A stretch of 64,000 bases of DNA from Streptomyces virginiae (GTDB lineage: Bacteria > Actinomycetota > Actinomycetes > Streptomycetales > Streptomycetaceae). This document shows, piece by piece, positions 5,865 to 45,076 of the stretch. Numbering within the stretch: the stretch's first letter is position 1; the number at the start of each line of letters is the position of its first letter. The notes under the pieces were generated by a model that saw nothing but the letters and a program-made list of their open reading frames with translations, had not been told where the DNA came from and searched no databases. The translations under genes and the position numbers were made by a program. The stretch covers positions 62,001-126,000 of the forward strand of contig NZ_JOAK01000015.1 of assembly GCF_000720455.1 (NCBI RefSeq). The letters run 5' to 3'.

Positions 5865-6052
5865 GCGCGGCGCGGTGAGCCGGGCCGCAAATCGAATCCC
5901 CGCGCGGAAACCACCCTTTGGGGTGAAGTGACGTCAGGTAGCTGCCCCGTCACCCACATTGAGTAAGGATTCCCAGGGTCGAAGCCGTCGGCGCGTGCGA
6001 TGTCCCCCATTGGCCGCGCGACGGCACCCAACTCCCCGGGGGTTCCACCACC

Positions 6053-6988
6053 TTGAACAGCAACACCTTCCGCATGCCCGCGGCCGCTCTGCTCGCCACG
6101 GGAGCGGTCGCCCTGCTCACGGCCCCGCCCGCCTCCGCCACGGGAGGCACCCCCGCAGGCGGAGAGGGCAAGTCCGGCGCCGTCGTCCTGCGCACCGGGC
6201 TGGACGTGGGCCTGCTCAACACCGTGCACATCCCGATGAAGGCGACCCTCAACGAGGTCAGCGCCCCCGCGACCGCCGAGAAGACGGCGCTGACCGTCAC
6301 CCTGGACGGGGTGGAGGGGAACCAGCCGGTCAGCGTCCTGCGCGCGGACGTCGCCACCTCCAAGGCGACCGCGGACAAGGCCGGGGCGCAGGCCGAGGCG
6401 AACCTGGCCAAGGCCCGCGTGCACGTCCCCGGGCTGCCGCTGCTCTCGCTGATCGAGGTGGAGAAGGTCACCTCCAAGGCGGTCTGCGAAGCCGGCAAGA
6501 AGCCGGTGGCCAGCGCGAACGTCCTCGGCACGGTGACCGTGCTGGGCAAGAAGGCGACCCTGTCGGCGGGCGGCCCCACCAAGGTCGAGGTCCCGGGCGT
6601 GGGCGCGGTCAGCCTGGAGCTGTCCAGTACGCAGACCACCTCCACCACGGCCGCCGCGGCGGCGCTGCGCCTGAAGGTGGCGCTGAACCCGCTGAACCTG
6701 AACGTGGCGAAGGTGGACGGCGAGATCGTGCTGGCCGAGGCGCACTGCGAGTCCCCGACGGGCCCGGCGCCGACGACGAAGGCGCCCGGTCAGCCCGACA
6801 TCAAGACCCAGACCGGGACGGGTACCGCCACCACCGCCGGTCCCGGCTCCGTCCCGGGCCCCACCGACGCCAACCTGGCCGAGACCGGCGGCGGTTCGCT
6901 CACCCCCTTCATCACGGGCGGTGCGCTGACGCTGCTCGCGCTCGGCGGCGGCGCGCTCTTCCTGACCCGGCGCGGCAAGGCCCAGTAG
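6053..6988 (+). CDS. SCO1860-family LAETGG-anchored surface protein
   Basis: A 311-residue secreted protein. It has a signal peptide (residues 1 to about 30, ending PPASATGG), a roughly 200-residue extracellular domain with two widely spaced Cys (VCEAG and AHCES), a Thr/Pro/Gly-rich wall-spanning stretch (about 238-275), then the sorting signal LAETGG, a hydrophobic segment and a basic tail RRGKAQ. LAxTG is the motif cut by class E sortases in Streptomyces. TTG 6053 is preferred to ATG 6074 because it gives the signal peptide an Arg in its n-region. Function of the ectodomain is unknown; the family is conserved in Streptomyces. Confidence 0.87.
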   Translation: MNSNTFRMPAAALLATGAVALLTAPPASATGGTPAGGEGKSGAVVLRTGLDVGLLNTVHIPMKATLNEVSAPATAEKTALTVTLDGVEGNQPVSVLRADVATSKATADKAGAQAEANLAKARVHVPGLPLLSLIEVEKVTSKAVCEAGKKPVASANVLGTVTVLGKKATLSAGGPTKVEVPGVGAVSLELSSTQTTSTTAAAAALRLKVALNPLNLNVAKVDGEIVLAEAHCESPTGPAPTTKAPGQPDIKTQTGTGTATTAGPGSVPGPTDANLAETGGGSLTPFITGGALTLLALGGGALFLTRRGKAQ

Positions 6989-7003
6989 GACCGCCGGGCG
7001 ACC

Positions 7004-7043
7004 GGGCCCGGCGCAGACCCGGGCCCGGCGCAGATCCGGGCCC
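7004..7043. repeat. 17-bp tandem repeat between convergent genes
   Basis: Two consecutive units, gggcccggcgcagaccc (7004-7020) and gggcccggcgcagatcc (7021-7037), then a partial third (gggccc). They lie in the 117-bp gap where the LAETGG gene and the CapA-like gene meet tail to tail. The units could fold as GC-rich hairpins and act as a terminator; nothing else is visible in the gap. Confidence 0.6.
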
Positions 7044-7105
7044 GCCGCGCGGCGCGGGTCGCGCCGGCGCCACCGCCACCCGGCGAGCACATCGGAGGGG
7101 AGTGC

Positions 7106-8338
7106 TCAACGGGTGGCGTGGGTCAGCCCCTGCCCCTCCGCGCCCCGGGACATCACGGCGTCGGTGACCTGCCGGTCGATCCGCGCGTACTCGTCGCGCT
7201 TCCCGGCCGCCAGCGCGCCGTCCGAGGCCGCGCAGGAGGCGCAGACGACACGGAACGGCGGACCCATGTCCGAGTACTGCGTGAGGTACTCGGCCTTCAC
7301 CACCTCCCACCGCCCCGGCCGGTCCGCCGCCGGGGCGAAGGTGAAGCGGGGGATCGAGGACTGGTTGCCGCGCAGCTTGTCGGCCGGGACGAAGCTGGCG
7401 ACCTGGTCGCCCATGCCGAAGACCACCCAGGTGCCGTTGATCTTCTCGTAGGGCTGCGGGACGTGGTTGTGCGTGCCGATGATCAGGTCGATGTCGGGGA
7501 GGCCGTCGGCCGAGCGGGACGCGGTCAGTGCCTGCGCCAGCTCCTTCTGCTGCTCGTCGGGCGCCGTCTGCCACTCGGTGCCCCAGTGGACGCTGAGCAC
7601 CACGACGTTCGCGCCGCCCGCCCGGGCCGCGCGGGCGTCCGCGATGATCCGGTCCTTGTCGATCAGGTTCACGGCCCACGGCTTGTCCTGGGGGAGCGGG
7701 ATGCCGTTCGTGCCGTACGTGTACGACAGCTGGGCGACCTTCGCGCCGCCCGCCGAGAGCAGGGCCGGCGCCTTGGCCTCCTCCGCGCTGCGGGCCGAGC
7801 CGACGTGCGGGATGCCGACCCGGTCCAGGTGCTCCAGGGTGCGGGCCAGACCCTCGTAGCCGTCGTCCAGGGTGTGGTTCGAGGCGGTGGAACACCCGTC
7901 GTACCCTGCGTCCTTGAGGGCGTCCGCCAGCTGGTGCGGGGCCTTGAAGGTGGGGTAGCCGGTGTAGGGGCCGCCGGGGCGCCCGTACGGTATCTCGTGG
8001 TGGCATATCGCCAGGTCGGCGGCGGAGACCAGGGGTTTGACCCCCGCGAGTATCTTCCGGAAGTCGTACTCCCCGGCCTTGCCGGCGTCGTCCCCCGCCC
8101 GCTGGATGATCGAGGGGTACGGGATGACGTCCCCGGTCGCCACCAGCGTGAACGGCTGCCCCGCCGGTGCGGCGGGAGAGGCCGGCGGTGACGTCGTCGC
8201 CCCGCCCGGTCCGCTCCCCAGCCGCTGCCGCGCGGCGGGCGCGTCGTCCCCGTCGAGCAGCTGCGGTACGGCGTACAGCGCGCCGCCGACGACCACCAGT
8301 GCGGCCAGCGCTGCGCCTGTCACGGCGGATGCCTTCAT
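7106..8338 (-). CDS. CapA-family (PGA_cap) metallophosphatase-like lipid- or membrane-anchored protein
   Basis: A 410-residue protein with an N-terminal membrane segment (about 5-28), a Ser/Pro/Gly linker, then a CapA/calcineurin-like domain from about 60 to the end. Metal and substrate motifs of the family are present: TLVATGDVIPY, STASNHTLDDGYEGL, SVHWGTEW and LIIGTHNHVPQP. The family includes poly-gamma-glutamate export proteins, but in Streptomyces the partner CapB/C genes are usually missing, and they are missing here, so the substrate is open. It acts outside the membrane. ATG 8338 is the start that yields a proper membrane anchor. Confidence 0.88.
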   Translation of the reverse strand: MKASAVTGAALAALVVVGGALYAVPQLLDGDDAPAARQRLGSGPGGATTSPPASPAAPAGQPFTLVATGDVIPYPSIIQRAGDDAGKAGEYDFRKILAGVKPLVSAADLAICHHEIPYGRPGGPYTGYPTFKAPHQLADALKDAGYDGCSTASNHTLDDGYEGLARTLEHLDRVGIPHVGSARSAEEAKAPALLSAGGAKVAQLSYTYGTNGIPLPQDKPWAVNLIDKDRIIADARAARAGGANVVVLSVHWGTEWQTAPDEQQKELAQALTASRSADGLPDIDLIIGTHNHVPQPYEKINGTWVVFGMGDQVASFVPADKLRGNQSSIPRFTFAPAADRPGRWEVVKAEYLTQYSDMGPPFRVVCASCAASDGALAAGKRDEYARIDRQVTDAVMSRGAEGQGLTHATR

Positions 8339-8442
8339 TCCCGACCCCCGTTGTTCCTCGCCCGATGCGGGGATCCTCGAACGGCCCCGCCCCCGCAGCC
8401 ATCGTAGGTGGGCCGTTCGGGTGAACCGGGGTCGGCGCGGGG

Positions 8443-9864
8443 TCAGGGCGAGGTCAGGGCGAGGGCGCGGTCCAGGGCCTGCAGCAGCCGGCCCGTCGTC
8501 GCCCGGTCGCGCACCGCCAGGCGGAGCCAGGTGCGGTCCAGCCCGGGGAAGGTGTCCCCGCGCCGGACGGCGAAGCCGAGGGCCCGCAGCCGGGTGCGGA
8601 CCTCCGCGCCGTCCGCCACCCGGATCAGGACGAACGGCCCCTCCGCGACCCCCACGACCTCGACCTCGTCGAACTCCGCGAGCCCGGCCAGCAGGTGCGC
8701 CCGGTCCACCGCGATCCGCCGCGCCGCCTCCTCCGCCTCGGCCAGCGCCGCCGGAGCCACGCAGGCCTCGGCCGCCACCAGGGCGGGCGTCGACACCGGC
8801 CACAGCGGCTGCGCCGCCGCCAGCCTGGCGATCACCCCGGGCTCGGCCAGCACGTACCCGATCCGCAGCCCCGCCAGGCCCCACGTCTTCGTCAGGCTCC
8901 GCAGCACCACCAGTCCCGGCAGGTCCGTCCGGCCCGCGAGGGCCTCCCGTTCGCCCGGGACGGCGTCCATGAACGCCTCGTCCACCACCAGGATCCGGCC
9001 CGGCCGGGCCAGCCGCGCCAGGACCGCCGCCGGGTGCAGCACGGACGTCGGGTTGGTCGGATTGCCGATGACCACGAGGTCCGCGTCCTCCGGCACGGCC
9101 GCCGGATCCAGCCGGAACCCGTCCTCGGCCCGCAGCACCACCCGCTCGACCCGGTGGCCGGCGTCCCGCAGGGCCGCCTCCGGCTCGGTGAACTGCGGAT
9201 GCACCACGACCGGCCGTTCGGCGCCCAGGGCCCTCGCGATCAGCACGAAGGCCTCCGCCGCCCCCGCCGTCAGCAGCACCCGCTCGACCGGCAGCCCGTG
9301 CCGGGCCGCCACCGCCGCGCGGGCGGCCCGCCCGTCGGGGTACGCGGCGAGGTCCCCGAGACAGGCGGCGATCCGCTGCCTGAGCCACTCCGGGGGCGTG
9401 TGCGCCCGTACGTTGACCGCGAGGTCCTCCAGAGCGGAGCCCGCGTCCACCACTTCGGCGTCCCCGTGGTGGCGCAGGTCGTGCGCCTGCGCCGTGGCGA
9501 CCGCGCAGGTCGCCGAGAGCGAGCGCCGCTTGGGCACGAGGAGTTCCCCGCCCGTCACGAGGGCGGCGGCCTCCGCCACCGAGGGGGTCCCGGTCGCTGC
9601 CCGCGCCGCCTCCGAGGGATGCGGTACGGGGACGTCGGCCAGCCGGTCCGCGGGATAGCCGAGGACGGGCACGCCGAAACGTTCCGCCGCACCGGCGATC
9701 CCCGCCTCGGCCACCTTCGAGTCCACCGTGGCCAGCGCCGTCACCGCCGCCGCGGTCAGCCCGGCGCCGCGCAGCGTCTCCTCGACCAGGGCGCAAACCT
9801 CCTCCACGGAGACCCCCGCGCGCCCGCCGACCCCGACCACCAGCCGCGTCGTGTACTCGCCCAC
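8443..9864 (-). CDS. cobC: CobC-type PLP enzyme fused to a CbiG C-terminal domain (Rv2231c family)
   Basis: A 473-residue cobalamin-pathway protein. Residues 1 to about 115 match the C-terminal domain of CbiG/CobE (LVVGVGGRAGVSVEEV, TVDSKVAEAG, GTPSVAEAAAL, GELLVPKRRS). Residues from about 150 on form an aminotransferase-fold domain like threonine-phosphate decarboxylase/CobC: GNPTNPTSVL, VVDEAFMD and the PLP lysine in LRSLTKTWGLAGLRIGY. CobC supplies the aminopropanol arm of B12; the CbiG part suggests a second role in ring contraction or delivery. GTG 9864 is chosen because GGAGGGAGG lies 7 bases upstream; an in-frame GTG at 9912 is possible. It lies downstream of the riboswitch-led cob genes but is separated from them by the opposite-strand ZIP gene. 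Confidence 0.88.
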   Translation of the reverse strand: MGEYTTRLVVGVGGRAGVSVEEVCALVEETLRGAGLTAAAVTALATVDSKVAEAGIAGAAERFGVPVLGYPADRLADVPVPHPSEAARAATGTPSVAEAAALVTGGELLVPKRRSLSATCAVATAQAHDLRHHGDAEVVDAGSALEDLAVNVRAHTPPEWLRQRIAACLGDLAAYPDGRAARAAVAARHGLPVERVLLTAGAAEAFVLIARALGAERPVVVHPQFTEPEAALRDAGHRVERVVLRAEDGFRLDPAAVPEDADLVVIGNPTNPTSVLHPAAVLARLARPGRILVVDEAFMDAVPGEREALAGRTDLPGLVVLRSLTKTWGLAGLRIGYVLAEPGVIARLAAAQPLWPVSTPALVAAEACVAPAALAEAEEAARRIAVDRAHLLAGLAEFDEVEVVGVAEGPFVLIRVADGAEVRTRLRALGFAVRRGDTFPGLDRTWLRLAVRDRATTGRLLQALDRALALTSP

Positions 9865-9992
9865 CGGGGGGCCTCCCTCCGTAGTCACGGTCACCGGCAC
9901 ATCACCGGACACCGGTCAGTCGTCAACACCGCTACGCCCGCCACCCGCGCGCGGACGTGCGCGCCGGGCGAGGAGTCTGTATCCAAGGGCAC

Positions 9993-10718
9993 ATGGCCGT
10001 GATCGTGGCGCTGGGCGCGTTCCTGATGACCCTGCTGGGCGGTTGGACGGCGCAACGCGTCACCGACCGCCGCCACCTCGTGCTGGGCCTGGCCGGCGGG
10101 CTGATGCTCGGCGTCGTCGGCCTGGACCTGCTCCCCGAGGCCCTGCACGCGGCGGGCGACGAGGTGTTCGGCGTCCCGCTCGCCCTGCTGCTCTTCGTGG
10201 CCGGCTTCCTCGTCGCCCACGTCGTCGAGCGGCTCCTGGCCGTGCGCCAGGCCGCGCACGGAGCCGAGAACGGCGCCCGCGTCCCGGAGGTCGGGCTCAC
10301 CGCGGCCGCCGCGATGGTCGGCCACAGCCTCGCCGACGGGGTGGCGCTGGGCGCGGCATTCCAGGTCGGCGGCGGGATGGGCGTGGCCGTGGCGCTGGCC
10401 GTCATCACCCACGACTTCGCCGACGGGTTCAACACGTACACGCTCACCAGCCTCTACGGCAACGACCGCCGCAAGGCCCTGATGATGCTGTTCGCGGACG
10501 CGGTGGCCCCGGTGGTGGGTGCGGCGTCCACTCTGCTGTTCACCCTTCCGGAGGAACCCCTCGGCGCGTACCTCGGCTTCTTCGGCGGCCTCCTGCTCTA
10601 CCTGGCCGCCGCCGAGATCCTGCCCGAGGCGCACCACAAGCACCCCGCCCTGTCCACGCTGATGTGCACGGTGGGCGGGGTGGCCGGGATCTGGCTCGTG
10701 GTGGGCATCGCGGAGTGA
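9993..10718 (+). CDS. ZIP family divalent metal transporter
   Basis: A 241-residue membrane protein with about seven to eight hydrophobic segments. The two ZIP metal-binding helices are clear: GHSLADGVALG (helix IV, HxxxDG) and THDFADGFNTY (helix V). The family moves Zn, Fe, Mn or other divalent ions into the cytosol. It stands alone on the plus strand inside the cobalamin locus, between cobC and cobB, which makes cobalt a candidate substrate; that is inference from position only. ATG 9993 is preferred over an upstream GTG because it begins directly at the first membrane helix. Confidence 0.9.
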   Translation: MAVIVALGAFLMTLLGGWTAQRVTDRRHLVLGLAGGLMLGVVGLDLLPEALHAAGDEVFGVPLALLLFVAGFLVAHVVERLLAVRQAAHGAENGARVPEVGLTAAAAMVGHSLADGVALGAAFQVGGGMGVAVALAVITHDFADGFNTYTLTSLYGNDRRKALMMLFADAVAPVVGAASTLLFTLPEEPLGAYLGFFGGLLLYLAAAEILPEAHHKHPALSTLMCTVGGVAGIWLVVGIAE

Positions 10719-10729
10719 GCCGGCAGGAT

Positions 10730-12226
10730 TCACGGCCGCGCTGCCGCGGCGCCTCGTACGGCCGCCGTCCGCGCGGCCGCGGCCTGCGCGAACCGGCGGG
10801 CGACGGACGGCTCCGCCGCCCAGTGAGTGTGCAGATAGCTGGCGTGCACACCCTGCCGGACGAAGCCCTCGACCCGGCGCTCCGGGTGCGTGAACCCCCA
10901 CGCGGGGGCCGCTCCGGCGCCCGGCTCGATCACCGTCCGGTGGAACTCGTGCCCGCGCAGCCGGGTCCCGGCCGCCGCGAGCGAGCTGTCGGACACGGCC
11001 ACCGCCTCGCGGTAGCCGAGGGTCAGCCGCTCCGACATCCGCGCGTCCGCGTCAAGCACCCCGCACATGGGCTTGCCGTCCAGCGACCGCGCCAGGTACA
11101 GCAGTCCGGCGCACTCGGCCGCCACCGGGCCGCCGGCCGCCGCGAAGGCCGAGACGGCCGCCCGCAGCGGTGCGTTGGCGGACAGCTCGGGCGCGTACAC
11201 CTCGGGGAACCCGCCGCCGATCACCAGGCCGCCGGTCCCCTCGGGCAGCGCCTCGTCCCGCAGCGGGTCGAAGGTGACGACCTCCGCGCCCGCCGCCTGC
11301 AGCAGCTCGGCGTGTTCGGCGTACGAGAACGTGAACGCGGCCCCGCCGGCGACGGCGACGACAGGTCGGTCGTACGGTGCGGCGCCGCTGCCGGGGGGCT
11401 GCCCCGGACCCCGCGCCTCGAACGCCGGAGAGGCCGGATCCGGCCGCTGCCGGCTGCCCGACGTGCCGGATTGCCCGGAGCGCACGTCAAGCCCCGCCGG
11501 CGACCACGGCTCGCAGGACAGCGGCGGAGCCGTCCGCGCCAGCGCCATCAGCGCGTCCAGGTCGCAGCCCGCCCGGACCTGCTCGGCCAGCGCGGCCACC
11601 GCGGCCAGCGCGTCGGCGTGCCGCTCGGCCACCGGCACCAGCCCCAGGTGGCGCGAGGGCGTGGCCACCTGCGGAGCCCGCCGCAGGACGCCGAGCACCG
11701 GCATCCCCGCCTCCTCCAGGGCCTCCCGCAGCATCACCTCGTGCCGGTCCGAGCCGACCTTGTTCAGGATCACGCCGCCCAGCCGGACCTGCGGGTCGAA
11801 GGAGGCGAAGCCGTGCACCAGCGCCGCCACCGACCGCGACTGCGAGGACGCGTCGACCACCAGCACCACCGGCGCCCGCAGCAGCTTCGCCACCTGCGCC
11901 GTCGACGCCAGCTCGCCCCGGCCCGCGGCCCCGTCGTAGAGCCCCATGACGCCCTCGACGACGGCGAGGTCGCACCCGGCCGCCCCGTGCGCGAACAGCG
12001 GAGCGATCAGCTCCGGCCCGCACATGAAGGCGTCGAGGTTGCGCCCCGGCCGGCCGGTGGCCAGCGCGTGGTAGCCGGGGTCGATGTAGTCGGGCCCGGC
12101 CTTGTGCGGGGACACGGCGAGGCCGCGCTCCGCGAAGGCCGCCATCAGGCCCGTGGCCACGGTGGTCTTGCCGCTGCCCGACGACGGCGCGGCGACGACC
12201 AGCCGGGGCATGTCGAACGCAGTCAC
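10730..12226 (-). CDS. cobB: Cobyrinate a,c-diamide synthase
   Basis: A 498-residue glutamine-dependent amidotransferase that amidates the a and c side chains of the corrin ring, an ATP-requiring cytosolic step. The N-terminal CbiA domain carries the P-loop APSSGSGKTT (about 11-20) and HKAGPDYIDPGYH; the C-terminal GATase1 domain has the nucleophile Cys in AAECAGLLYLARS and a catalytic His in RGHEFH. The linker between the domains (about residues 233-285) is unusually long and is encoded in part by a dispersed repeat (see 11391-11437). GTG 12226 overlaps the cobO stop as GTGA, so translation is coupled. The ATG five codons later is an alternative start. Confidence 0.93.
   Translation of the reverse strand: MTAFDMPRLVVAAPSSGSGKTTVATGLMAAFAERGLAVSPHKAGPDYIDPGYHALATGRPGRNLDAFMCGPELIAPLFAHGAAGCDLAVVEGVMGLYDGAAGRGELASTAQVAKLLRAPVVLVVDASSQSRSVAALVHGFASFDPQVRLGGVILNKVGSDRHEVMLREALEEAGMPVLGVLRRAPQVATPSRHLGLVPVAERHADALAAVAALAEQVRAGCDLDALMALARTAPPLSCEPWSPAGLDVRSGQSGTSGSRQRPDPASPAFEARGPGQPPGSGAAPYDRPVVAVAGGAAFTFSYAEHAELLQAAGAEVVTFDPLRDEALPEGTGGLVIGGGFPEVYAPELSANAPLRAAVSAFAAAGGPVAAECAGLLYLARSLDGKPMCGVLDADARMSERLTLGYREAVAVSDSSLAAAGTRLRGHEFHRTVIEPGAGAAPAWGFTHPERRVEGFVRQGVHASYLHTHWAAEPSVARRFAQAAAARTAAVRGAAAARP
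11391..11437. repeat. Dispersed repeat copy inside cobB
   Basis: The stretch ccggggggctgccccggacc followed by ccgcgcctcgaacgccggag and aggccgg is closely similar to 15018-15070. Both copies have a G/C-rich palindrome (ggggctg-ccccgg), then cccgcg-ctcgaacgccgg. I recall such segments as common intergenic repeats in Streptomyces genomes. Here the copy is read in frame and encodes part of the cobB inter-domain linker (PASPAFEARGPGQPP). Confidence 0.7.
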
Positions 12227-32601: not shown

Positions 32602-33237
32602 TCAGCCCGGGGCCCGCGGCGCCGTCGCCAGCAGGGCCGTCACCAGGGCGCGTACGGACAGCAGGAAGAGCCGCTCCGGGTCGGCGGGCCGGGCCAGCGC
32701 GCGGGCGAGCGCCGGGTCGTGGGGGGCCGCGGCCGGGTCCCACAGCTCGCTCTCGGCCGGGGACTGGGCGGGGGAGCGCTCGCGGTTGCGCTCGACGAGC
32801 AGGAACCCGACGATCTGGAACTGCACCGCCCGCACCGCGTCGGCCGCCCGGGCACCGCGCAGGCCCGCGGCGTGCACCTCGTGGACGAGCGCCTGCTGCG
32901 CCGGAAGGAACATCCGCTCCGTGAGACCGCGTTCGTGGACCATCGCGATCAGGTGCGGGCGCTCGCGCAGCTCGCGGCGCAGGATCCGGGCGACCGACAG
33001 GATCCGCTCGGCCGGGGAACGTCCGGCGGGCCGGATCGCGCCCATCTCCTGCACGGTCCGCTCCACGAGGGCGTCCAGCAGCGACTCGCGGTTGCCGACG
33101 TGCCAGTAGATCGACGTCACCGCGGTGCCCAGCTCGGCGGCGAGCCCCCGCATCGTCAGGGCGGCCGGGCCGCGCTGCTTGACCAGGGACGCGGCGGCGT
33201 CCAGGACCTCGTCGCGGGTCAGCGAGGATCTGGCCAT
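32602..33237 (-). CDS. TetR/AcrR family transcriptional regulator
   Basis: A 211-residue TetR-type repressor. The HTH is at about 8-52 (DEVLDAAASLVKQRG, LTMRGLAAELGTAVTSIYWHVGNRESLLDALVE). The larger C-terminal domain contains ERILSVARILRRELRERPHLIAMV and resembles TetR_C members sensing hydrophobic or acyl-type ligands. It is divergent from the decarboxylase/SDR/amidohydrolase operon with a 115-bp gap that carries a perfect palindrome, so it most likely represses that operon and itself. Ligand unknown. Confidence 0.92.
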   Translation of the reverse strand: MARSSLTRDEVLDAAASLVKQRGPAALTMRGLAAELGTAVTSIYWHVGNRESLLDALVERTVQEMGAIRPAGRSPAERILSVARILRRELRERPHLIAMVHERGLTERMFLPAQQALVHEVHAAGLRGARAADAVRAVQFQIVGFLLVERNRERSPAQSPAESELWDPAAAPHDPALARALARPADPERLFLLSVRALVTALLATAPRAPG

Positions 33238-35048: not shown

Positions 35049-36341
35049 ATGAGCGACACACCGTACGAAGACCCGTACCTGATCATTTCCTCCGACTGCC
35101 ACGCGGGCCTGCCCACCGAGCTGTACCGCCCCTACCTCGACTCCCGCTTCCACCCGCAGTTCGACGAGTTCCTCGGCCAGCGCGACGCCCGCCGCGCGGA
35201 GGCCACCCGCCTGGGCGTGCGCAACGAGGCCTTCGCCGAGAAGTGGTTCCACGATCACGAGGAGGGCCTGCGGGGAGGCTGGGACGCGGGCCAGCGGCTG
35301 AAGGAGCTCGACGGCGACGGCGTCGCCGCCGAGGTCGTCTTCCCCGACGCGGACGCCGTCGACAGCCAGACCGCGGCCCCCTTCGGGGTGGGGCTCGGGC
35401 TCTCCGGCGACCAGGACCCCGAGCTCGGCATGGCGGGCGCGCAGGCGCACAACCGCTGGCTGGCCGAGTTCGTCTCGCAGAACCCCGAACGCCACTGCGG
35501 CGTCGCCCTCCTGCCCATCACTGGCGAGCCGTCGAAGGTCGTCGCCGAGATCCACCGGGCCAAGGAGTCCGGGCTGGGCGCGCTGATGATCCCCGCCATG
35601 TGGGTGGACAAGGCGCCCTACCACGACCGACGCTACGACCCCGTCTGGGCGGCGGCCGCCGAGACGCGGATGCCGATCGTCACCCACTCCGGGTCCTCAC
35701 CGCGCCACGAGTACGGCGACCACCTGGGCATCTTCGTCTCCGAGGTCACCTGGTGGCCGGCCCGTCCGCTGTGGTTCCTGCTCTGGTCGGGGGTGTTCGA
35801 GCGGCACCCGGGCCTGAGGTTCGGGGTCGCCGAGTCGGGCTGCTGGTGGCTGCCGAACCAGCTGTGGTTCATGGACCGGCTCTACCTCGGCGCGCACGGC
35901 GGCAAGAAGCTCTCGCCGTTCGAGGAGCTGAAGCGGCCGCCCAGCGAGTACCTGGACCGCCAGGTCTTCGTCTGCGCGACGAACACCAAGCGGCGCGAAC
36001 TGGCCCAGCGCTACGAGATCGGCGTGGACAACATCCTGTGGGGCTCGGACTTCCCGCACCCCGAGGGCACCTGGCCGGACACCCGCAACTGGCTGCGCAA
36101 GACCTTCCACGACATCCCGGTCGACGAGACCCGGCGGATGCTCGGGCTCGCCGCGGCGGAGGTCTTCGGCTTCGACACGGAGGAACTGGCCCCGGTCGCC
36201 CGCCGGATCGGCCCCACCCCGGCCGAACTGGGCCAGTCCCCGGACCAGGCGGCGGTGGCGGCCTCCTGGGCACGCTCGCGCGAGGTGGGCCGCCACTGGC
36301 TGACCGACCACGACTTCCCCGTCCTGGGGGTGTCGCGGTGA
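35049..36341 (+). CDS. Amidohydrolase family 2 protein, first of a tandem pair
   Basis: A 430-residue TIM-barrel hydrolase of the amidohydrolase-2/ACMSD group. Metal-site candidates are SSDCHAG near the N-terminus (Asp-x-His in place of His-x-His), IVTHSGSS, and the late Asp in WGSDFPHPEG. The length is about 80 residues more than ACMSD. Paralogous to the next gene product: both open with (I)IS(A/S)DCHAG, carry VAAEVVFP/IVAEVVFP and AHNRWLA, and end in a WGSD(F/Y)PH motif. It acts in the cytosol on an unknown, probably carboxylated or ring-cleaved, substrate. Confidence 0.88.
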   Translation: MSDTPYEDPYLIISSDCHAGLPTELYRPYLDSRFHPQFDEFLGQRDARRAEATRLGVRNEAFAEKWFHDHEEGLRGGWDAGQRLKELDGDGVAAEVVFPDADAVDSQTAAPFGVGLGLSGDQDPELGMAGAQAHNRWLAEFVSQNPERHCGVALLPITGEPSKVVAEIHRAKESGLGALMIPAMWVDKAPYHDRRYDPVWAAAAETRMPIVTHSGSSPRHEYGDHLGIFVSEVTWWPARPLWFLLWSGVFERHPGLRFGVAESGCWWLPNQLWFMDRLYLGAHGGKKLSPFEELKRPPSEYLDRQVFVCATNTKRRELAQRYEIGVDNILWGSDFPHPEGTWPDTRNWLRKTFHDIPVDETRRMLGLAAAEVFGFDTEELAPVARRIGPTPAELGQSPDQAAVAASWARSREVGRHWLTDHDFPVLGVSR

Positions 36342-37561
36342 CCGGCGACGACCGCTACACGGTGATCTCGGCGGACTGCCACGCGGGCGCCGACCTCCTG
36401 GACTACAAGCCGTACCTGGAGAGGCGGTACCACGACGAGTTCGACGCCTGGGCCGCCACGTACGTGAACCCGTACGAGGACCTCCTCGCGGACACCGCGG
36501 ACCGCAACTGGAACTCGGCGCGGCGCCTGGCGGAACTGGAGGCGGACGGCATCGTCGCCGAGGTCGTCTTCCCCAACACCATCCCGCCGTTCTTCCCCAA
36601 GGCCTCCCTGATGGCGCAGCCGCCGACGGCCGCCGAGTACGAGATGCGGTGGGCCGGCCTCCAGGCCCACAACCGCTGGCTGGCGGACTTCTGCGCGGAC
36701 GCCCCCGGCCGGCGGGCGGGCGTCGCGCAGATCCTGCTGAACGACGTGGACGCGGCGGTGCGGGAGATCCGCCGCGTCAGGGAGGCCGGCCTGACGGGCG
36801 GGATCCTGCTGCCCGGCGTACCGCCCGGCTCGACGGTCCCCGAGCTGTACTCGGCCGCCTACGACCCCGTCTGGGCGGTGTGCGACGAGCTCGACGTCCC
36901 GGTCAACCACCACGGCGGCTCGGCGTCGCCGCCGCTCGGCGACGAGCCGGCAGCCCGGGCCGTCTTCATGGTGGAGACCACCTGGTTCTCGCACCGCGCC
37001 CTGTGGCACCTCGTGTTCGGCGGGGCGTTCCGCCGCCATCCCGGCCTCAAGCTGGTCCTCACGGAGCAGGGCTCCGGCTGGATCCCGGGCGTGTTGGAGA
37101 TGCTGGACTACTACCACGGCCGTCTGGTCGCGGCGTCGGCCACGGCCGAGTCCAAGTTCGGGGCGGGCCTCGCCGAGGCGATGGGCAAGGGCCCCAGCGA
37201 GGTCTGGCGGGACAACTGCTTCGTGGGAGCGAGCTTCATGCGCCCCCACGAGGTCCCGCTGCGGGACCGGATCGGCCTCGACAAGATCATGTGGGGCAGC
37301 GACTACCCCCACGACGAGGGCACCACCCCGTACTCCCGCGAAGGCCTGCGCATCGCCTACGCGGGCCTGGCGCGGGACGAGATCGCGGCGATGGTCGGCG
37401 GCAACGCGGCCCGCGTCTACGGCTTCGACCTCCCCCTCCTGGACGCCCTGGCGGCCAAGCACGGCCCGCTGGTGTCGGAGATCGCCGAACCCCTGACCCA
37501 GATCCCGCCCGAGGCCACCAGCCCGGCCTTCGCCAAGGGCGGCTCGGTCCGGGTCTGGTAG
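36338..37561 (+). CDS. Amidohydrolase family 2 protein, second of a tandem pair
   Basis: A 407-residue paralogue of the preceding protein, probably arisen by tandem duplication. Metal-site candidates ADCHAG, VNHHGGS and WGSDYPHDEG are at corresponding places. GTG 36338 overlaps the previous stop as GTGA, so the two are translated together and may form a heteromer. Similar amidohydrolases accompany decarboxylase-like and SDR genes in actinobacterial degradation operons. Substrate unknown. The gene ends 23 bases before the end of the opposing NACHT gene, with no terminator visible between them. Confidence 0.88.
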   Translation: MTGDDRYTVISADCHAGADLLDYKPYLERRYHDEFDAWAATYVNPYEDLLADTADRNWNSARRLAELEADGIVAEVVFPNTIPPFFPKASLMAQPPTAAEYEMRWAGLQAHNRWLADFCADAPGRRAGVAQILLNDVDAAVREIRRVREAGLTGGILLPGVPPGSTVPELYSAAYDPVWAVCDELDVPVNHHGGSASPPLGDEPAARAVFMVETTWFSHRALWHLVFGGAFRRHPGLKLVLTEQGSGWIPGVLEMLDYYHGRLVAASATAESKFGAGLAEAMGKGPSEVWRDNCFVGASFMRPHEVPLRDRIGLDKIMWGSDYPHDEGTTPYSREGLRIAYAGLARDEIAAMVGGNAARVYGFDLPLLDALAAKHGPLVSEIAEPLTQIPPEATSPAFAKGGSVRVW

Positions 37562-37584: not shown

Positions 37585-40500
37585 TCAGTTCCACCGAGTC
37601 AGCCGCTCCGGCGGGATGGCTTCGATCCCGTTGAGCACCACGTCGCCGTACACCTCGATCGAGATCTGCTCCGCCCTCGCCAGCGGGGTGAGGTCCACGC
37701 AACCGCTGCGTTGGTTGAATACGAGGCGGCGGAGGTGCGGCAGGGAGCTGAGCGGCGCCAGGGAGTCCACGACAGCACACTGGTTCAGCGACAGGTCGGT
37801 GACGTGGTCGAATCGGGTCAGCAGAGCCGGTTCGATCGCTGCCTCGGTGATGTCAAGGTTGGTCACCGGCAAGTGGGGATGGTGCGCGGCAAGTTCCTGT
37901 ACCCGCTCGTCGCCGCTGATTGCGAGGGAACGGAGTTCCTGCCAGCGTTCCAAACCGACGAGGGGAATGTCGCGGGCGGTCAGGCCCAAGGACAGCGACT
38001 GCAAACCGTCGCTGACCGGCAGAGTGCCGACCCGGTCCACCGGGGCCCGGTAGCCCAAGTGCAGTGAATCGAGGGGGAGCATTTGCAGCGAACCCAGAGG
38101 CAGCCCGTCCTGGAGGCCGAAAAGGCTCAGATTGTGCAGCGGAAGGTCTGCGAGCGGACCCAAGTCGCCGATGGCCGGGCACATGGACAGGCCGAGGAAC
38201 TGAAGTCGGTCGAGCCGGCGCAGAGGGGCGAGATCCGTCAGTGTTTCGTTGCGGAAGACGAAAAGCCACTCCAGGTCGCTGCGGCTCGCGAGTATGTCGG
38301 CGAGGCCCGGCGCCCAGTGGAGGTTGACCCGCTTGAGGTGAGTGAGCCGGGCGAGCCATGCGGCCTGCTCGGCCGTGTTCACCAGCAGGCTCGCATTGCC
38401 CAGGTCGGCGCTGCTGAGCACGACCTCGGCGTATTCCGCAGTATCGAAGCGCCCCCAGCTTTCGCCTAGGGCGTGGGACACACGGAGCCGTGTGTCCGAC
38501 CGGAACCTGGTGATGACCTTCATGGCCGCGGAACCACCGATCCCGGCTGCGGTGAGGATAACCGCCTCGGCCGCATGGGCGTCCAAATCGCCGCTGCCGG
38601 GCAGCAGTTCCAGGACGATTTCCCCCGCCTTGGCCAGTGACTCGGCCTGGCGGCGGTTGCGCGGCGGCAGCAATTCCGCAGTACGGGACTGAATGTCGGC
38701 GCGGATCACAGGGTCCAGCTCCGGGGCGTGTTCCAGACAGGCAGCGGCCAGCAGGATCAGACGGCTGCGGGTGCCCTTGACCTTGTCCGCGCGTTTCAGC
38801 AGGCCGCGCAGGATGCGGGTACGTTCGTCCGGGCGGGCATGACCCACGGCCATTCGGACGACATCGTCCCACGTGTCGTCGTGCGCGTTCTTCACCAGGA
38901 CACCGAAGTCGCGGGCTTCCACTGCGGCCTTCGCAGCCAGGTAGTCCTGAAAGGTGCGGTGGACGAAGACGACCGTGCCCGGAGCCGGCTCCAGGAGCAG
39001 GCCGCTGCGGATCAGGAGATGGGTGAAGACCGGGTCGGCGCCTCCCTGAGCCCGTACCTGGGGCATCGAGTCCAGCCACCCGCCCACCAACTCGACGGCT
39101 TCGTCCCGGCCCGCCTCCAACTGCCCGTTGCGGATCAGCCAGTACGCGAGCCGCTGGAGCAGCGCGATCTGCTCCTCCCGGGTGAGGTAGACCCCCTCGA
39201 CCCCGCAGATCTCCCGCTCCGTGTCCCGCCGGACCAGCAGCATGTCCAGTGCCGCGTCGTACAGTTCCTTGCGCGCCCGGGGGAGCTGCATGCGCCGGTC
39301 CTGGTTGAGGGCGCAGAGCAGGGCGCACATCAGTGGGTTCGTCGCCAGTCGGGCCAGGTCCCGTCGGGAGGCGACCGCCTCCAGCAGTGAGGCCTCGTAC
39401 GCGTCCACCTCCTGCCCCTGCGCCCGCGCGGCCGCGTGCCAATGCTCCACGAAGGCCCGGATGTCGCGCTGTTCCATCGGCAGCATCGAGTGGGTGGCGA
39501 ACCCGAGGCCCGCGAGCCAGTCCTCCGGGACGGCAGAGGGGCGGGTCGTCACCACGTAACGGGCCTTCGGGAAGGCGGAGACGAGCGAGCGCAGCCAGGT
39601 CTCCGTGCGGGCGCGCAGCCGCTGCGGGACCTCGTCCACGCCGTCCACCAGGACCAGCGCCCGGCCGCTCAGCATGAGGTCGTCGACCCAGCCCGGCGGG
39701 GCGGACAGCGGTACGCCGCCCGCGCGCAGGAAGTCCTCCGGCAGGGGCAGGTCGCCCGATGCGGTGAAGGAGCGCAGGCGCAGCACGAACGGCACGCACG
39801 TGCTCCACGGTCCGTCGCTCTGCCGGGCCGCATTGAGGGCCAGCCATTGCACCAGGGTGGATTTCCCCGAGCCCGCCGGACCGCGCAGCAGGACCCGATC
39901 GGCGGAGGCGAGGGCCTGCTCGGCCCGGACCTGGGTCCGGTGCACCGCCGGTTCGCCCGGCAGGAGCTGCTCCGTGCCGCTGACCGACAGGCTGATGTAC
40001 GCCACGTCCAGCGGCCAGTCCTGGCGGGAGCGGCTGAGGGTGAGGCCGAAGAGCTGGAGGCGGCCGTGGGTCGCGGCGATGTACTGCGCGTAACGCTCCT
40101 CGAAGGCGTACGACGTCCCGTCCCCGGCGGCACCGAGCCGGTCCACCGCACGGGCCAGCTCCCCCGTCCGCCGGACCAGTTCCACGTCCGTCCGGGCGGC
40201 GAAGCCCGGCAGGGTCGTCAGGTACTCCACCGTGTGCTCGCAGCACAGCCGGACCAGCCGCCCGTACAGGGCCTCGGCCGCACCGCCCAGGCCGGGTGGG
40301 GCCGGCGGCAGTGTCGCCGCCAGGGCCGTCGGGTCCAGGTCCGCCGCGAAGAGGGCCTCCGCGTCCAGTGGGCCCAGCGCGGCGAAGGCGTCGCCGACCG
40401 CGGCAACCGCCGCCAGCCGTTCGTGTTCGGGGAGGCGGGCAGTGGCCTCGGTCATGCGGGCCGCGAGGGCCTCGGCCAGGCGGCGGACCTCCGGCTCGGC

Positions 40501-40650
40501 CAGTTCCGTCGGCGGCCGGCGCCAGCGCGGGACCGGGCGGGCGGGGTCCGCCGTCAGGCCCGCCCCCGGGGCCCGGGACAGCAGGGACCTGACCAGGGCG
40601 CTCGCCGCCGTGCCCGCCACGCGTAACAGAACCGTCTCGAATCCCGTCAT
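37585..40650 (-). CDS. NACHT NTPase with C-terminal leucine-rich repeats (bacterial NLR-like)
   Basis: A 1021-residue STAND NTPase. Residues 1 to about 200 are a helical N-terminal domain of the kind found on actinobacterial NACHT proteins. NACHT follows: Walker A GPAGSGKST (257-265), Walker B with acidic run VLVDGVDEVP (333-342), sensor TTRPS (368-372) and the winged-helix mark FVHRTFQDYLAA (about 562-573). From about 770 on lie irregular leucine-rich repeats (LTDLAPLRRLDRLQFLGLSM, LPHLRRLVFNQ). This is the domain order of eukaryotic NLR receptors. Related bacterial bNACHT proteins act in phage defence; the function here is inferred. ATG 40650 has GGAGGGCGGGG in front; the longer upstream reading is antisense to the next gene. 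The LRR half looks less GC-rich than its neighbours. Confidence 0.9.
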   Translation of the reverse strand: MTGFETVLLRVAGTAASALVRSLLSRAPGAGLTADPARPVPRWRRPPTELAEPEVRRLAEALAARMTEATARLPEHERLAAVAAVGDAFAALGPLDAEALFAADLDPTALAATLPPAPPGLGGAAEALYGRLVRLCCEHTVEYLTTLPGFAARTDVELVRRTGELARAVDRLGAAGDGTSYAFEERYAQYIAATHGRLQLFGLTLSRSRQDWPLDVAYISLSVSGTEQLLPGEPAVHRTQVRAEQALASADRVLLRGPAGSGKSTLVQWLALNAARQSDGPWSTCVPFVLRLRSFTASGDLPLPEDFLRAGGVPLSAPPGWVDDLMLSGRALVLVDGVDEVPQRLRARTETWLRSLVSAFPKARYVVTTRPSAVPEDWLAGLGFATHSMLPMEQRDIRAFVEHWHAAARAQGQEVDAYEASLLEAVASRRDLARLATNPLMCALLCALNQDRRMQLPRARKELYDAALDMLLVRRDTEREICGVEGVYLTREEQIALLQRLAYWLIRNGQLEAGRDEAVELVGGWLDSMPQVRAQGGADPVFTHLLIRSGLLLEPAPGTVVFVHRTFQDYLAAKAAVEARDFGVLVKNAHDDTWDDVVRMAVGHARPDERTRILRGLLKRADKVKGTRSRLILLAAACLEHAPELDPVIRADIQSRTAELLPPRNRRQAESLAKAGEIVLELLPGSGDLDAHAAEAVILTAAGIGGSAAMKVITRFRSDTRLRVSHALGESWGRFDTAEYAEVVLSSADLGNASLLVNTAEQAAWLARLTHLKRVNLHWAPGLADILASRSDLEWLFVFRNETLTDLAPLRRLDRLQFLGLSMCPAIGDLGPLADLPLHNLSLFGLQDGLPLGSLQMLPLDSLHLGYRAPVDRVGTLPVSDGLQSLSLGLTARDIPLVGLERWQELRSLAISGDERVQELAAHHPHLPVTNLDITEAAIEPALLTRFDHVTDLSLNQCAVVDSLAPLSSLPHLRRLVFNQRSGCVDLTPLARAEQISIEVYGDVVLNGIEAIPPERLTRWN

Positions 40651-40665
40651 TCCCCGCCCTCCCCG

Positions 40666-40700
40666 AACCGTCGGTAACCTCGATGGATACCGATCGGTAA
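40666..40700. promoter_or_regulatory. Paired pseudo-palindromes in the NACHT promoter
   Basis: AACCGTCGGTAA (40666-40677) and TACCGATCGGTAA (40688-40700) share ACCG-N1-2-CGGTAA; the second holds the perfect 12-base palindrome TACCGATCGGTA. Their centres are about 22 bases apart, two helical turns, as for a dimeric regulator binding twice. They lie between the divergent NACHT gene and the AGMO-like gene, nearer the former. The regulator is unknown. Confidence 0.55.
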
Positions 40701-40743
40701 CAACCTCTAGCGGCACCCCCGAAGGCGCCTCTATGGTGCGGAC

Positions 40744-41682
40744 ATGCCGAACCTGCCCGATGTCGTGCTGTGGTCCATACCCGCCTTCGTGCTGCTCACC
40801 GTCATCGAGCTGGTGAGCTACCGCCTCCATCCCGACGAGGACGCGGAGGGCTACGACTCCAAGGACGCCGTCACCAGCATCAGCATGGGGCTCGGCAGCA
40901 TCGGCTTCGACCTGCTCTGGAAGATCCCGGTGGTCGCGGTCTTCACCGCCGTCTACGAACTCACCCCGCTGCGGGTGCCGTTGCTGTGGTGGACCATCCC
41001 GCTGATGCTGCTCGCCCAGGACTTCCTCTATTACTGGCAGCACCGCGGCCACCACGTCATCCGCATCCTGTGGGCCTGCCACGTGGTCCACCACAGCAGC
41101 CGGAAGTTCAACCTCACCACCGCCCTGCGCCAGCCCTGGACCAGTGCCACGACCTACTGGTTCTACCTGCCGATGGTGGCCGTCGGGGTGCACCCGGCCG
41201 TGATCCCGTTCTGCTACGGCATCAACCTGCTCTACCAGTTCTGGGTCCACACCGAGCGCATCGGGAAGCTTCCCCGCGCCTACGAGTACGTCTTCAACAC
41301 CCCGTCCCACCACCGCGTGCACCACGCGTCCCAGGGCGGCTACCTCGACCGCAACTACGGCGGCATCCTGATCATCTGGGACCGGATGTTCGGCTCCTGG
41401 GTGGGGGAGACCGACAAGCCCGTGTACGGGCTCACCAAGAACATCAACACCTACAACCCGCTGCGCGTCGCCACCCACGAGTACGCCGCCATCGCCCGGG
41501 ACGTCCGCGCCGCCCGGAGCTGGAGCGAGCGGGCCGGCCGGGTCTTCCGCGGCCCGGGCTGGCAGCCCGCCCCCACTGCGGAGGCCGCGCCCGCCACCGC
41601 CACCGCAGCAGCCGTCCCCGCGCCCGCCACCGCGCCCGTCACCCCCGCCGCCGACCCGGCCGTACAGGAGACCCACGCGTGA
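40744..41682 (+). CDS. Fatty acid hydroxylase superfamily protein, alkylglycerol-monooxygenase-like
   Basis: A 312-residue integral membrane di-iron enzyme. The histidine clusters are HRGHH, HVVHHSS and HRVHHA, with extra His in WVHTE. The stretches SRKFNLTTALRQPW, GINLLYQFWVHTE, NTPSHHRVHHA, DRNYGGILIIWDRMFGSW and VYGLTKNINT correspond closely to what I remember of animal AGMO (TMEM195), which splits ether bonds of alkylglycerols to release fatty aldehydes, rather than to sterol desaturases proper. Four or more membrane helices. The C-terminal 40 residues are an Ala/Pro/Thr tail. Its stop overlaps the lysoplasmalogenase start. Confidence 0.88.
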   Translation: MPNLPDVVLWSIPAFVLLTVIELVSYRLHPDEDAEGYDSKDAVTSISMGLGSIGFDLLWKIPVVAVFTAVYELTPLRVPLLWWTIPLMLLAQDFLYYWQHRGHHVIRILWACHVVHHSSRKFNLTTALRQPWTSATTYWFYLPMVAVGVHPAVIPFCYGINLLYQFWVHTERIGKLPRAYEYVFNTPSHHRVHHASQGGYLDRNYGGILIIWDRMFGSWVGETDKPVYGLTKNINTYNPLRVATHEYAAIARDVRAARSWSERAGRVFRGPGWQPAPTAEAAPATATAAAVPAPATAPVTPAADPAVQETHA

Positions 41683-43531: not shown

Positions 43532-45076
43532 CTACTTCACGGCCTTGAGGGCGTCCACGACGCCGTAGCCGTAGTAGCCCGTCTGCCCCCACTTGGCCTG
43601 GCAGGTGGTGGCGTCGACCAGGGTGCCCGCGGCGTCGTAGATCTGCGTCGGGCAGGCCGCCTTGGTGGACTGCGCCTTCAGCATCGCCTGGAGCTGCGAG
43701 GGCGTGGCCCCCGGGTGGGCGCTCTTGAGCAGCGCCGCGACGCCCGCGACGTGCGGGGCGGCCATCGAGGTGCCCTGCTTGTACCCGTAGCCCCCGCCCG
43801 GGACGGTCGACAGCACGCGCCCGTTGGCGTCCGGCGTGGCCGGGACCTGCCACTTGTCGCCGCCGGGGGCCGCGACGTCCACGACCCCGAGGCCGTAGCT
43901 GGAGTAGTACGAGCGCAGGCCCTTGTCGCCGGTCGCGGAGACGGTGACCACGCCCGGCAGCTGCGTGGGCAGGTCCAGGCAGACCTTCGGGTCGATGGTG
44001 CGCGTCACCGGGGTGGTGTCGTTCGGGCTGGTGGTGTCCTCCAGGGAGTCGGCCGCCAGGTCCTGGTTGGAGTTGCCGGCGGACGCCACGTGCAGGGTGC
44101 CCTTGCGCTCCGCGTACTTGGTGGCCCGGCCGATGGCCTCCACCAGCGCCTTCTGGTCGTCGTCGGTCTTGCAGTTGAAGAGCCACGGGTCGACGTAGTA
44201 GCTGTTGTTGGTCACCTCGATCCCCTTCTCGGCGGCGAACATGAAGCCGCAGACGACCGCCTCGGTGTAGAAGAGGCTGGTCCCGGGCTCGCTCACCTTG
44301 ATCGCGGCGATCTTCACGCCGGGCGCCACACCGCTGATGCCGACGCCGTTGCGCGGGGCGCCGATGGTGCCGGCGACGTGCGTGCCGTGGTCGCTGCCGT
44401 CGGGGTACGGGCGCCAGGCGCCGTCGGTGGTGTCGGCGACCCCGCCGACGCAGTTGGCCGACTGGCCCTTGGAGAAGTTCGGGGCGAGATCGGGGTGGGT
44501 GTCGTCCACACCCGTGTCGATGATGCCCACCGTGACGTCCTGGCTGCCATCGTTGATCTTGTGAGCCTCGTCGGCCCTGATCGTCCGCAGGTCCCACTGG
44601 TTGGGTTCGAGCGGCTCCTGACCCTCCTGGGCACGCGCCGCCGCCTTGGCCGCGTCCGCCTCGCTCAGCAGCTGGGTCGCGCCCTCGTCGGTGGTCTGCA
44701 CCGCCTGCATCGGGGCCGTCCGGGTGGCGCCGACGGACACGAACAGCCCACGCTGGGCGCGCAGCTGCTTGGCGAAGTCCGGGTTCTGGGAGTGTGCGAC
44801 GACGACCCCGATCTGCTCATAGGCCGTCACCACCGTTCCGCCGGCCCGCTCGACGGCCTTCTTCGCCGCCTTCATCGTGGCGTAGGCGTTCAGGTTCGCC
44901 ACGTACGACAGCTTGGGGCCGGTGGTCGCCGCCTTCGGCGCCGTCGCCGCGTCCGCGGTGGTGCCCAGCGGGGCGGCGGAGGCCGACACCGAGGGCAGCA
45001 GGGCGAGCGAGGCGGTGAGCGCCAGGCCGACCGGTACGGCCAGGGCGCGCCGGCGGACGGATCCCAGATGAGCCAT
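43532..45076 (-). CDS. Secreted S8 family serine peptidase (subtilase)
   Basis: A 514-residue extracellular protease. A signal peptide (1 to about 35, LTASLALLPSVSASA-A) is followed by an inhibitor-type prodomain (about 50-160) and the S8 domain with catalytic Asp 187 (GIIDTGVDD), His 230 (SDHGTHVAG) and Ser in GTSMAAPHVAG. Four Cys in the catalytic domain and two near the end could form disulfides. There is no anchor, so the enzyme should be released. It stands alone, with a long 258-bp leader region shared with the divergent DUF485 gene. Confidence 0.93.
   Translation of the reverse strand: MAHLGSVRRRALAVPVGLALTASLALLPSVSASAAPLGTTADAATAPKAATTGPKLSYVANLNAYATMKAAKKAVERAGGTVVTAYEQIGVVVAHSQNPDFAKQLRAQRGLFVSVGATRTAPMQAVQTTDEGATQLLSEADAAKAAARAQEGQEPLEPNQWDLRTIRADEAHKINDGSQDVTVGIIDTGVDDTHPDLAPNFSKGQSANCVGGVADTTDGAWRPYPDGSDHGTHVAGTIGAPRNGVGISGVAPGVKIAAIKVSEPGTSLFYTEAVVCGFMFAAEKGIEVTNNSYYVDPWLFNCKTDDDQKALVEAIGRATKYAERKGTLHVASAGNSNQDLAADSLEDTTSPNDTTPVTRTIDPKVCLDLPTQLPGVVTVSATGDKGLRSYYSSYGLGVVDVAAPGGDKWQVPATPDANGRVLSTVPGGGYGYKQGTSMAAPHVAGVAALLKSAHPGATPSQLQAMLKAQSTKAACPTQIYDAAGTLVDATTCQAKWGQTGYYGYGVVDALKAVK

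Follow-up and report, generated by a model that had tools for sequence, protein, structure and literature searches.

The window, a stretch of 64,000 nucleotides from Streptomyces virginiae, carries on its reverse strand a gene for a protein in which a helical NNH1 domain is followed by a NACHT NTPase and C-terminal LRRs. The features of this NACHT-LRR gene and its immediate surroundings are as follows (aa, residues of the protein).

36338-37561 (+): left neighbour, amidohydrolase (Pfam PF04909, synteny)
37585-40650 (-): NACHT-LRR gene, 1021 aa
37588-38700 (-): exchangeable C-terminal sensor module, aa ~651-1021 (identity change points and the drop in DNA identity between L043 and L045)
37588-38397 (-): LRR solenoid of ~13 strands, aa 752-1021 (DSSP of the model and internalin A match)
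38701-40125 (-): conserved NTPase core (linker, NACHT, HD, winged-helix region), aa 176 to ~650
38959-38961 (-): His564 in FVHRTF, invariant in 117 aligned proteins
39430-39897 (-): NACHT domain, aa 252-407 (Pfam PF05729, E 6.7e-25)
39631-39654 (-): Walker B, aa 333-340 (translation and alignment)
39856-39882 (-): Walker A GPAGSGKST, aa 257-265 (translation and alignment)
40135-40629 (-): NNH1 helical N-terminal domain, aa 8-172 (Pfam PF22733, E 9.7e-37)
40651-40743: divergent promoter region between the NACHT-LRR gene and the fatty acid hydroxylase gene
40744-41682 (+): right neighbour, fatty acid hydroxylase family (Pfam PF04116)

The gene starts with an ATG at 40650, just after a purine-rich stretch, and its stop lies at 37585. 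The Pfam scores of NNH1 (127.2 bits, curated cut-off 27) and NACHT (88.3 bits, cut-off 26.7) are above their thresholds, while an LRR_4 match at aa 793-834 is marginally below (25.6 of 27 bits); in addition, phmmer matched internalin A over aa 766-996 (E 6.9e-8). An earlier reading made from the sequence alone had described the NACHT domain as intact, which is confirmed by Walker A, by a Walker B motif embedded in LVLVDGVDE at aa 332-340, and by TTRPS at aa 368-372. The residues K263, T265, D336, D339, E340, T368, R370, and H564 do not vary across the 117 aligned proteins. The HD and WH labels of the core are ones that we take over from NLRs, and His564 is the likely equivalent of the winged-helix histidine of these proteins. 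The N-terminus had been regarded as only helical; it is helical, and Pfam recognises no enzyme domain there, but it belongs to the named family NNH1 and is thus not just helices. Pfam gave no CARD or PYD match at the N-terminus, and it matched neither NCH1 nor SNaCT, for which its library may be without one or both models. The score for EruA (NCBIfam NF058535) was 19.1 bits at a cut-off of 1000, the best match of the protein in PADLOC 2023 had an E value of only 0.0018, and no NCBIfam model was over its cut-off.

The AlphaFold model of the protein (pLDDT 83.6) adopts a predicted NLR fold. In a fold search, its best matches were NLRC4, NOD2, and NLRP3, which covered ~aa 180-1021 (NLRC4 4kxf, E 2.5e-17), and between aa 755 and 1017 it contains ~13 beta-strands spaced by 19-23 residues. 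In the model, both features that define NLRs in the broad sense are found, namely a C-terminal LRR solenoid and an NLR-type NACHT-HD-WHD fold. Together with the Pfam evidence for NNH1, NACHT, and LRRs, this bears out the NLR-like domain order and fold proposed from the sequence. The animal proteins share the fold but only 13-20% identity in structural alignments, and they differ from the Streptomyces protein, which is without a CARD or PYD match in Pfam and diversifies by cassette exchange at one locus. With the NNH1 domain alone, the fold search reached a best E value of 0.98, and no solved effector resembled it.

PMC12169576, which covers the bNACHT proteins and bacterial NLRs of Kibby et al. 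(2023), refers to bacterial proteins with NACHT and LRRs as 'bona fide bacterial NLRs', and other bacterial NACHT proteins (bNACHT), with which our protein shares the NACHT module, protect against phage according to the same text. The tested bNACHT proteins of clades 6 and 14 contain either NCH1 together with a DNase or SNaCT (PMC12169576), whereas the Streptomyces protein has NNH1 and LRRs. The NACHT-LRR architecture itself is already known in bacteria; what is distinctive is how the gene varies.

Two amidohydrolases lie to the left of the gene. On the right, the divergently read genes encode the fatty acid hydroxylase, a YhhN protein, an alcohol dehydrogenase, and an S8 subtilase, the last of which (43532-45076) is the fourth gene rightward and also occurs in L073 and L075, where the NACHT gene is absent. 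The view that no toxin, protease, or nuclease sits beside the gene holds for the immediate neighbours, which include no protease, but not for the wider surroundings with this subtilase. A PADLOC scan of 10 nearby genes (E 1e-5) gave nothing except the subtilase, which matched subtilase models and, weakly, IetS. This agrees with the sequence-only view of a protein that would act alone; the lack of defence neighbours among the genes scanned at the same time weakens an immune reading. The divergent promoter region contains the palindrome TACCGATCGGTA at 40688-40699, which is perhaps used as an operator by a TetR-type regulator, for example that encoded at 32602-33237. The same palindrome is present at the empty sites L073-L075 and is therefore not specific to the NACHT-LRR gene.

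A full-length orthologue (at least 53% identity and at least 912 bits) was found in 22 of the 150 Streptomyces genomes drawn. The next match had 638 bits, and the lower matches listed were 36-51% identical, many of them over part of the query. The gene has a mostly fixed address, as one of the two immediate neighbours adjoins it at 23 of 26 distinct loci; L055 and L072 are orthologues in the same neighbourhood. Only L048 (G145:C35) lies elsewhere, with none of the usual genes around it, which suggests that the gene can move. As the genome also contains NNH1-NACHT paralogues, it was in principle conceivable that different paralogues were compared as one gene, but the constant neighbours and the gap between 912 and 638 bits already disfavour such an artefact, which we consider the most improbable of all explanations.

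Occupancy was followed in 33 genomes that have both neighbours close together on one contig. The site held the NACHT gene in 10 genomes, only 117-261 bp in seven, 0.8-1.1 kb in 13, and other lengths in three. Six of the 13 sites of 0.8-1.1 kb were read (L076-L079, L081, L082), and in L076, which is from another clade, a VIT family gene (6897-7619) occupies the same intergenic site in the place of the NACHT gene. The empty sites include those of G053, G045, and G038, with flanks that resemble the window about as closely as do the flanks of the close occupied sites. Inspection of empty-site junctions by eye revealed neither an insertion element nor a site duplication. At its usual site, the gene also undergoes loss, as the copy in L055 (G128) has an internal stop and L090 (G074) retains only a short remnant matching aa 129-195.

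Regulators of the STAND type such as MalT exist, and MalT and AfsR represent STAND transcription regulators. The NACHT-LRR gene lies among housekeeping genes and shares its divergent promoter region with a lipid gene, and it could likewise encode a regulator of the STAND type that acts in metabolism or development and binds a cellular or extracellular ligand with its LRRs. A DNA-binding domain is, however, absent from the Pfam scan of the protein (18 families listed up to E 1). The orthologue is also restricted to the 22 of 150 genomes and missing from otherwise intact sites, and a housekeeping regulator would not normally be expected to undergo the cassette exchange described below. We regard such a regulatory role as distinctly unlikely.

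Variation along the protein was analyzed with alignment A1 of 117 proteins, which derives from the best 120 of 1668 matches with P0061, P0077, P0097, and P0120 omitted; a further alignment, A3, covers P0122-P0200 (79 proteins, seven omitted, 72 kept). Among the 117 orthologues, the LRRs had the highest mean column entropy (1.97 bits), followed by the helical part (1.14), NNH1 (0.80), NACHT (0.57), and HD/WH (0.36). The comparison of the window with L044 (G039) gave identities of 93% in the flanks, 96% in NACHT, 90% in HD/WH, 78% in NNH1, 56% in the helical part, and 37% in the LRRs. LRR identity to the window was 28-40% in 23 of the 24 relatives measured and 52% in L043, at flank identities of 73-94%. 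LRRs as conserved as housekeeping proteins, which the sequence-only reading had named as its own refutation, are thus not what is found. LRR identities between pairs have a bimodal distribution, and with a threshold of 50% single linkage divides the 117 proteins into 10 groups, one of them a singleton. Within the LRRs of these proteins, variability is greatest at exposed positions on the concave sheet, with 2.69 bits in comparison to 2.15 at other exposed and 0.88 at structural positions (p 7e-6). A register-shift control peaked at zero, and slides of 1-21 positions gave at most 2.42 bits. Within the gene, GC content is, as the earlier reading had stated, lower in the LRR half (65-69%) than in the N-terminal one (71-77%). 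However, values down to 65% also occur in the right-hand neighbour, and low GC is therefore not specific to the LRRs.

The mosaic structure of the gene is most evident in L043 and L045, which are 97.0% identical in the flanks, 96% in the core, and 95% in NNH1, but only 40% in the LRRs. Measured in 100-base steps, their DNA identity lies at 87-99% over the first ~600 codons, which also argues against an unnoticed comparison of paralogues, drops at ~aa 630-730, stays at 49-65% to near the gene end, and returns to 91-99% in the next gene. The DNA of the window and L044 behaves similarly, except that its identity declines more gradually from ~aa 600 onward and is also lower within parts of NNH1. 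Among the 34 protein pairs with cores at least 96% identical, 23 had LRRs below 50% identity, and in all of these 23 pairs, which share members and are not independent, the identity change point lies at aa 611-685. In the pair P0034/P0036, every 50-residue block of aa 1-650 is at least 96% identical, while the LRRs share 36%.

Trees were calculated for 24 loci with a quick procedure without mixture models. Before divergence and tree counts, the duplicates L063, L064, and L070 (of L044, L045, and L050) and the paralogues L068, L069, L083, and L084 were dropped; L048, which has no flanks, and the truncated L055 were also left out of the trees. Flank and core trees both unite L043 with L045, and L042 with L044 and L062, whereas the LRR tree unites L042 with L043, L045 with L046, and L062 with L067. 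In AU tests, the LRR data rejected L043+L045 (p 5e-7) and L042+L044+L062 (3e-5), and weakly L042+L044 (0.015), whereas the core data rejected L045+L046 (2e-7), L042+L043 (2e-30), and L062+L067 (0.003), groups that the flank data rejected as well; as the groups were chosen after viewing the trees of the other partitions, these p values are optimistic.

Synonymous divergence gives an indication of the age of the differing ends. Their dS is 2.3-4.4 times that of the flanks, and as dS of the core is also raised (1.5-2.5 times), the whole gene and not the LRR end alone is older or more recombining than its neighbours. Between the window and eight relatives with LRR identities of 34-52%, dS was 0.72-0.96 in the LRRs, 0.35-0.80 in NACHT and HD/WH, and 0.23-0.35 in the flanks, with an LRR dN/dS of 0.57-0.98. 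Two pairs at 60% LRR identity had dS values of 0.59-0.66 in the LRRs and 0.15-0.22 in the flanks (dN/dS 0.46-0.49). The four pairs with close LRRs (L057, L058, L060, L066) had an LRR dS of 0.16-0.23 and a dN/dS of 0.25-0.42 and are under purifying selection; omega of the LRRs was below 1 in 14 of 14 pairs tested. In 29 disjoint pairs with close LRRs, the concave face was not enriched for change (11.3% in comparison to 13.8% at other exposed positions, Fisher p 0.014, in the opposite direction), which gives no hint of ongoing positive selection at this face. The raised dS of differing LRRs and the low omega of close ones argue against rapid point mutation as the chief origin of LRR diversity; together with the conflicting trees, they lead to the view that the sensor changes mainly via exchange of old cassettes. 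The earlier expectation of a fast-changing sensor was hence correct in that the LRRs are far more variable than the neighbouring housekeeping genes, but the change comes by cassette exchange, with close LRRs under purifying selection. In our reading of these sequences, each LRR class would keep one binding specificity under purifying selection, and change would come from exchange.

The absences of the gene, the copy with the internal stop (G128), and the remnant (G074) could also be taken to mean that the gene is dispensable and under relaxed constraint, with drifting LRRs. This explanation is very improbable and already disfavoured, as the structural leucine positions are kept (0.88 in comparison to 2.69 bits), dN/dS between close LRRs is only 0.25-0.42, and the motif residues of the NTPase are invariant.

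In one pair of relatives, L060 and L066, NNH1 appears to differ in the manner of an exchanged module. Flanks (97.5%) and LRRs (93%) are highly similar, but NNH1 is only 43% identical (dS 0.44, dN/dS 1.20), and DNA identity is low from the gene start to ~aa 170. The core of this pair is also more diverged than its flanks (dS 0.27 in comparison to 0.07).

NNH1 was over the cut-off in 63 of 101 Streptomyces genomes, but in only three of 149 genomes of a phylum-wide draw, two of which were Streptomyces, including that of the window itself. This genome has two NNH1-NACHT paralogues, one of which (L088, 8892-11852) lies as a single gene beside a ClpC-type gene (Clp_N and AAA_2). By eye, apparently the same Clp gene also stands next to groups of genes that match the window protein, four in G127 and three in G122 (L083, L084), and the vicinity of the ClpC-type gene is possibly a second fixed address of the NNH1-NACHT family. 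In the family of the Clp-adjoining paralogue, the C-terminus is variable too (1.6-2.1 bits). Core and LRR divergence correlate with 0.70 in this family and with 0.19 in the NACHT-LRR family, a difference that may in part be due to sampling, as both sets are top matches by score and the choice of the 117 proteins by similarity to the window protein biases such correlations. The genome further encodes, at 5375-11227 (-) of L089 (G000:C40), a protein of 1950 aa with TIR, NACHT-associated (NA-iREase3), and WD40 matches and a NACHT match over the cut-off, which represents another type of NLR-like protein. A reservoir of silent donor cassettes within this genome (a draft of 132 contigs) was considered and rejected: only the two paralogues match the LRR end, with 30-32% identity, and the donors should therefore be other strains. 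Carriage by phages or plasmids was likewise rejected, as the search gave two weak Vibrio phage matches and 90 matched plasmid records, 21 of them from Streptomyces, all below 60% identity.

Taken at the level of sequence, the invariant NTPase residues, the conserved motor, and the exchanged sensor ends form the pattern that would be expected of an NLR-type recognition receptor. We consider it probable, though by no means certain, that the gene encodes a stand-alone, single-gene intracellular immune receptor of the NLR type in Streptomyces, with a sensor that is exchanged between strains. In the proposed mechanism, the resting receptor would be bound to ADP and folded on itself. Binding of a specific molecule, derived from or altered by an invader, to the LRRs would cause NACHT to swap its nucleotide and a ring to assemble, in which the clustered NNH1 domains would act as the effector or recruit one, so that growth of the hyphal compartment stops. 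A new specificity could arise when homologous recombination swaps the LRR end for an old alternative cassette, with the conserved NTPase core and a conserved neighbouring gene, possibly the left amidohydrolase as a homology arm, serving as anchors.

The target need not be a phage, as the pattern would look no different if the receptor served allorecognition or acted against conjugative DNA. A receptor that distinguishes self from non-self between Streptomyces strains, or acts against incoming conjugative DNA, would resemble the fungal het NLRs and be in line with the recombining LRR classes, with LRR relationships that cut across the flank phylogeny (L045 with L046), with the presence or absence of the gene, and with the multicellular host. 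Anti-phage immunity fits the mosaic pattern equally well, and no partner locus was noticed; we judge this alternative to be unlikely.

The LRR resistance genes of plants and the het NLRs of fungi combine a polymorphic sensor with a conserved NTPase and presence/absence variation, and these three properties are shared by the Streptomyces gene. Unlike them, it is bacterial, its LRR end is replaced with edges near the domain junction, and its concave face is without excess recent change. The STAND sensors of multicellular bacteria that are diversified by DGRs rely on a CLec domain together with a reverse transcriptase (PMC10907252). They likewise carry a diversified sensor on a NACHT/STAND protein in a multicellular bacterium, but in the Streptomyces gene, which has no CLec-like Pfam match, the whole module differs, synonymous sites included. 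LRR-module exchange is unmentioned in the accessible part of PMC12169576, and our literature search, which left most subscription papers outside and is thus weak evidence of novelty, found no description of LRR exchange in bacterial NLRs, of how these gain specificities, or of a phage test of the present family.

Our data suggest that bacteria trade ready-made recognition modules. More tentatively, with the chances in our estimation slightly against it, this one Streptomyces address may be a population-wide polymorphic immune locus, at which inter-strain homologous recombination equips a constant NLR motor with discrete LRR sensors of old origin and, independently of these, with N-terminal output modules. 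If true, the locus, from which some ten LRR classes have been seen so far, would represent modular innate immunity in bacteria and be comparable to plant resistance loci. Sensor exchange on a constant NTPase has been proposed for eukaryotic NLRs. With natural pairs such as P0034/P0036, which have a near-identical motor and output but different sensors, the target of each bacterial LRR becomes directly testable, and such allele pairs would show whether this exchange is a bacterial strategy as well.
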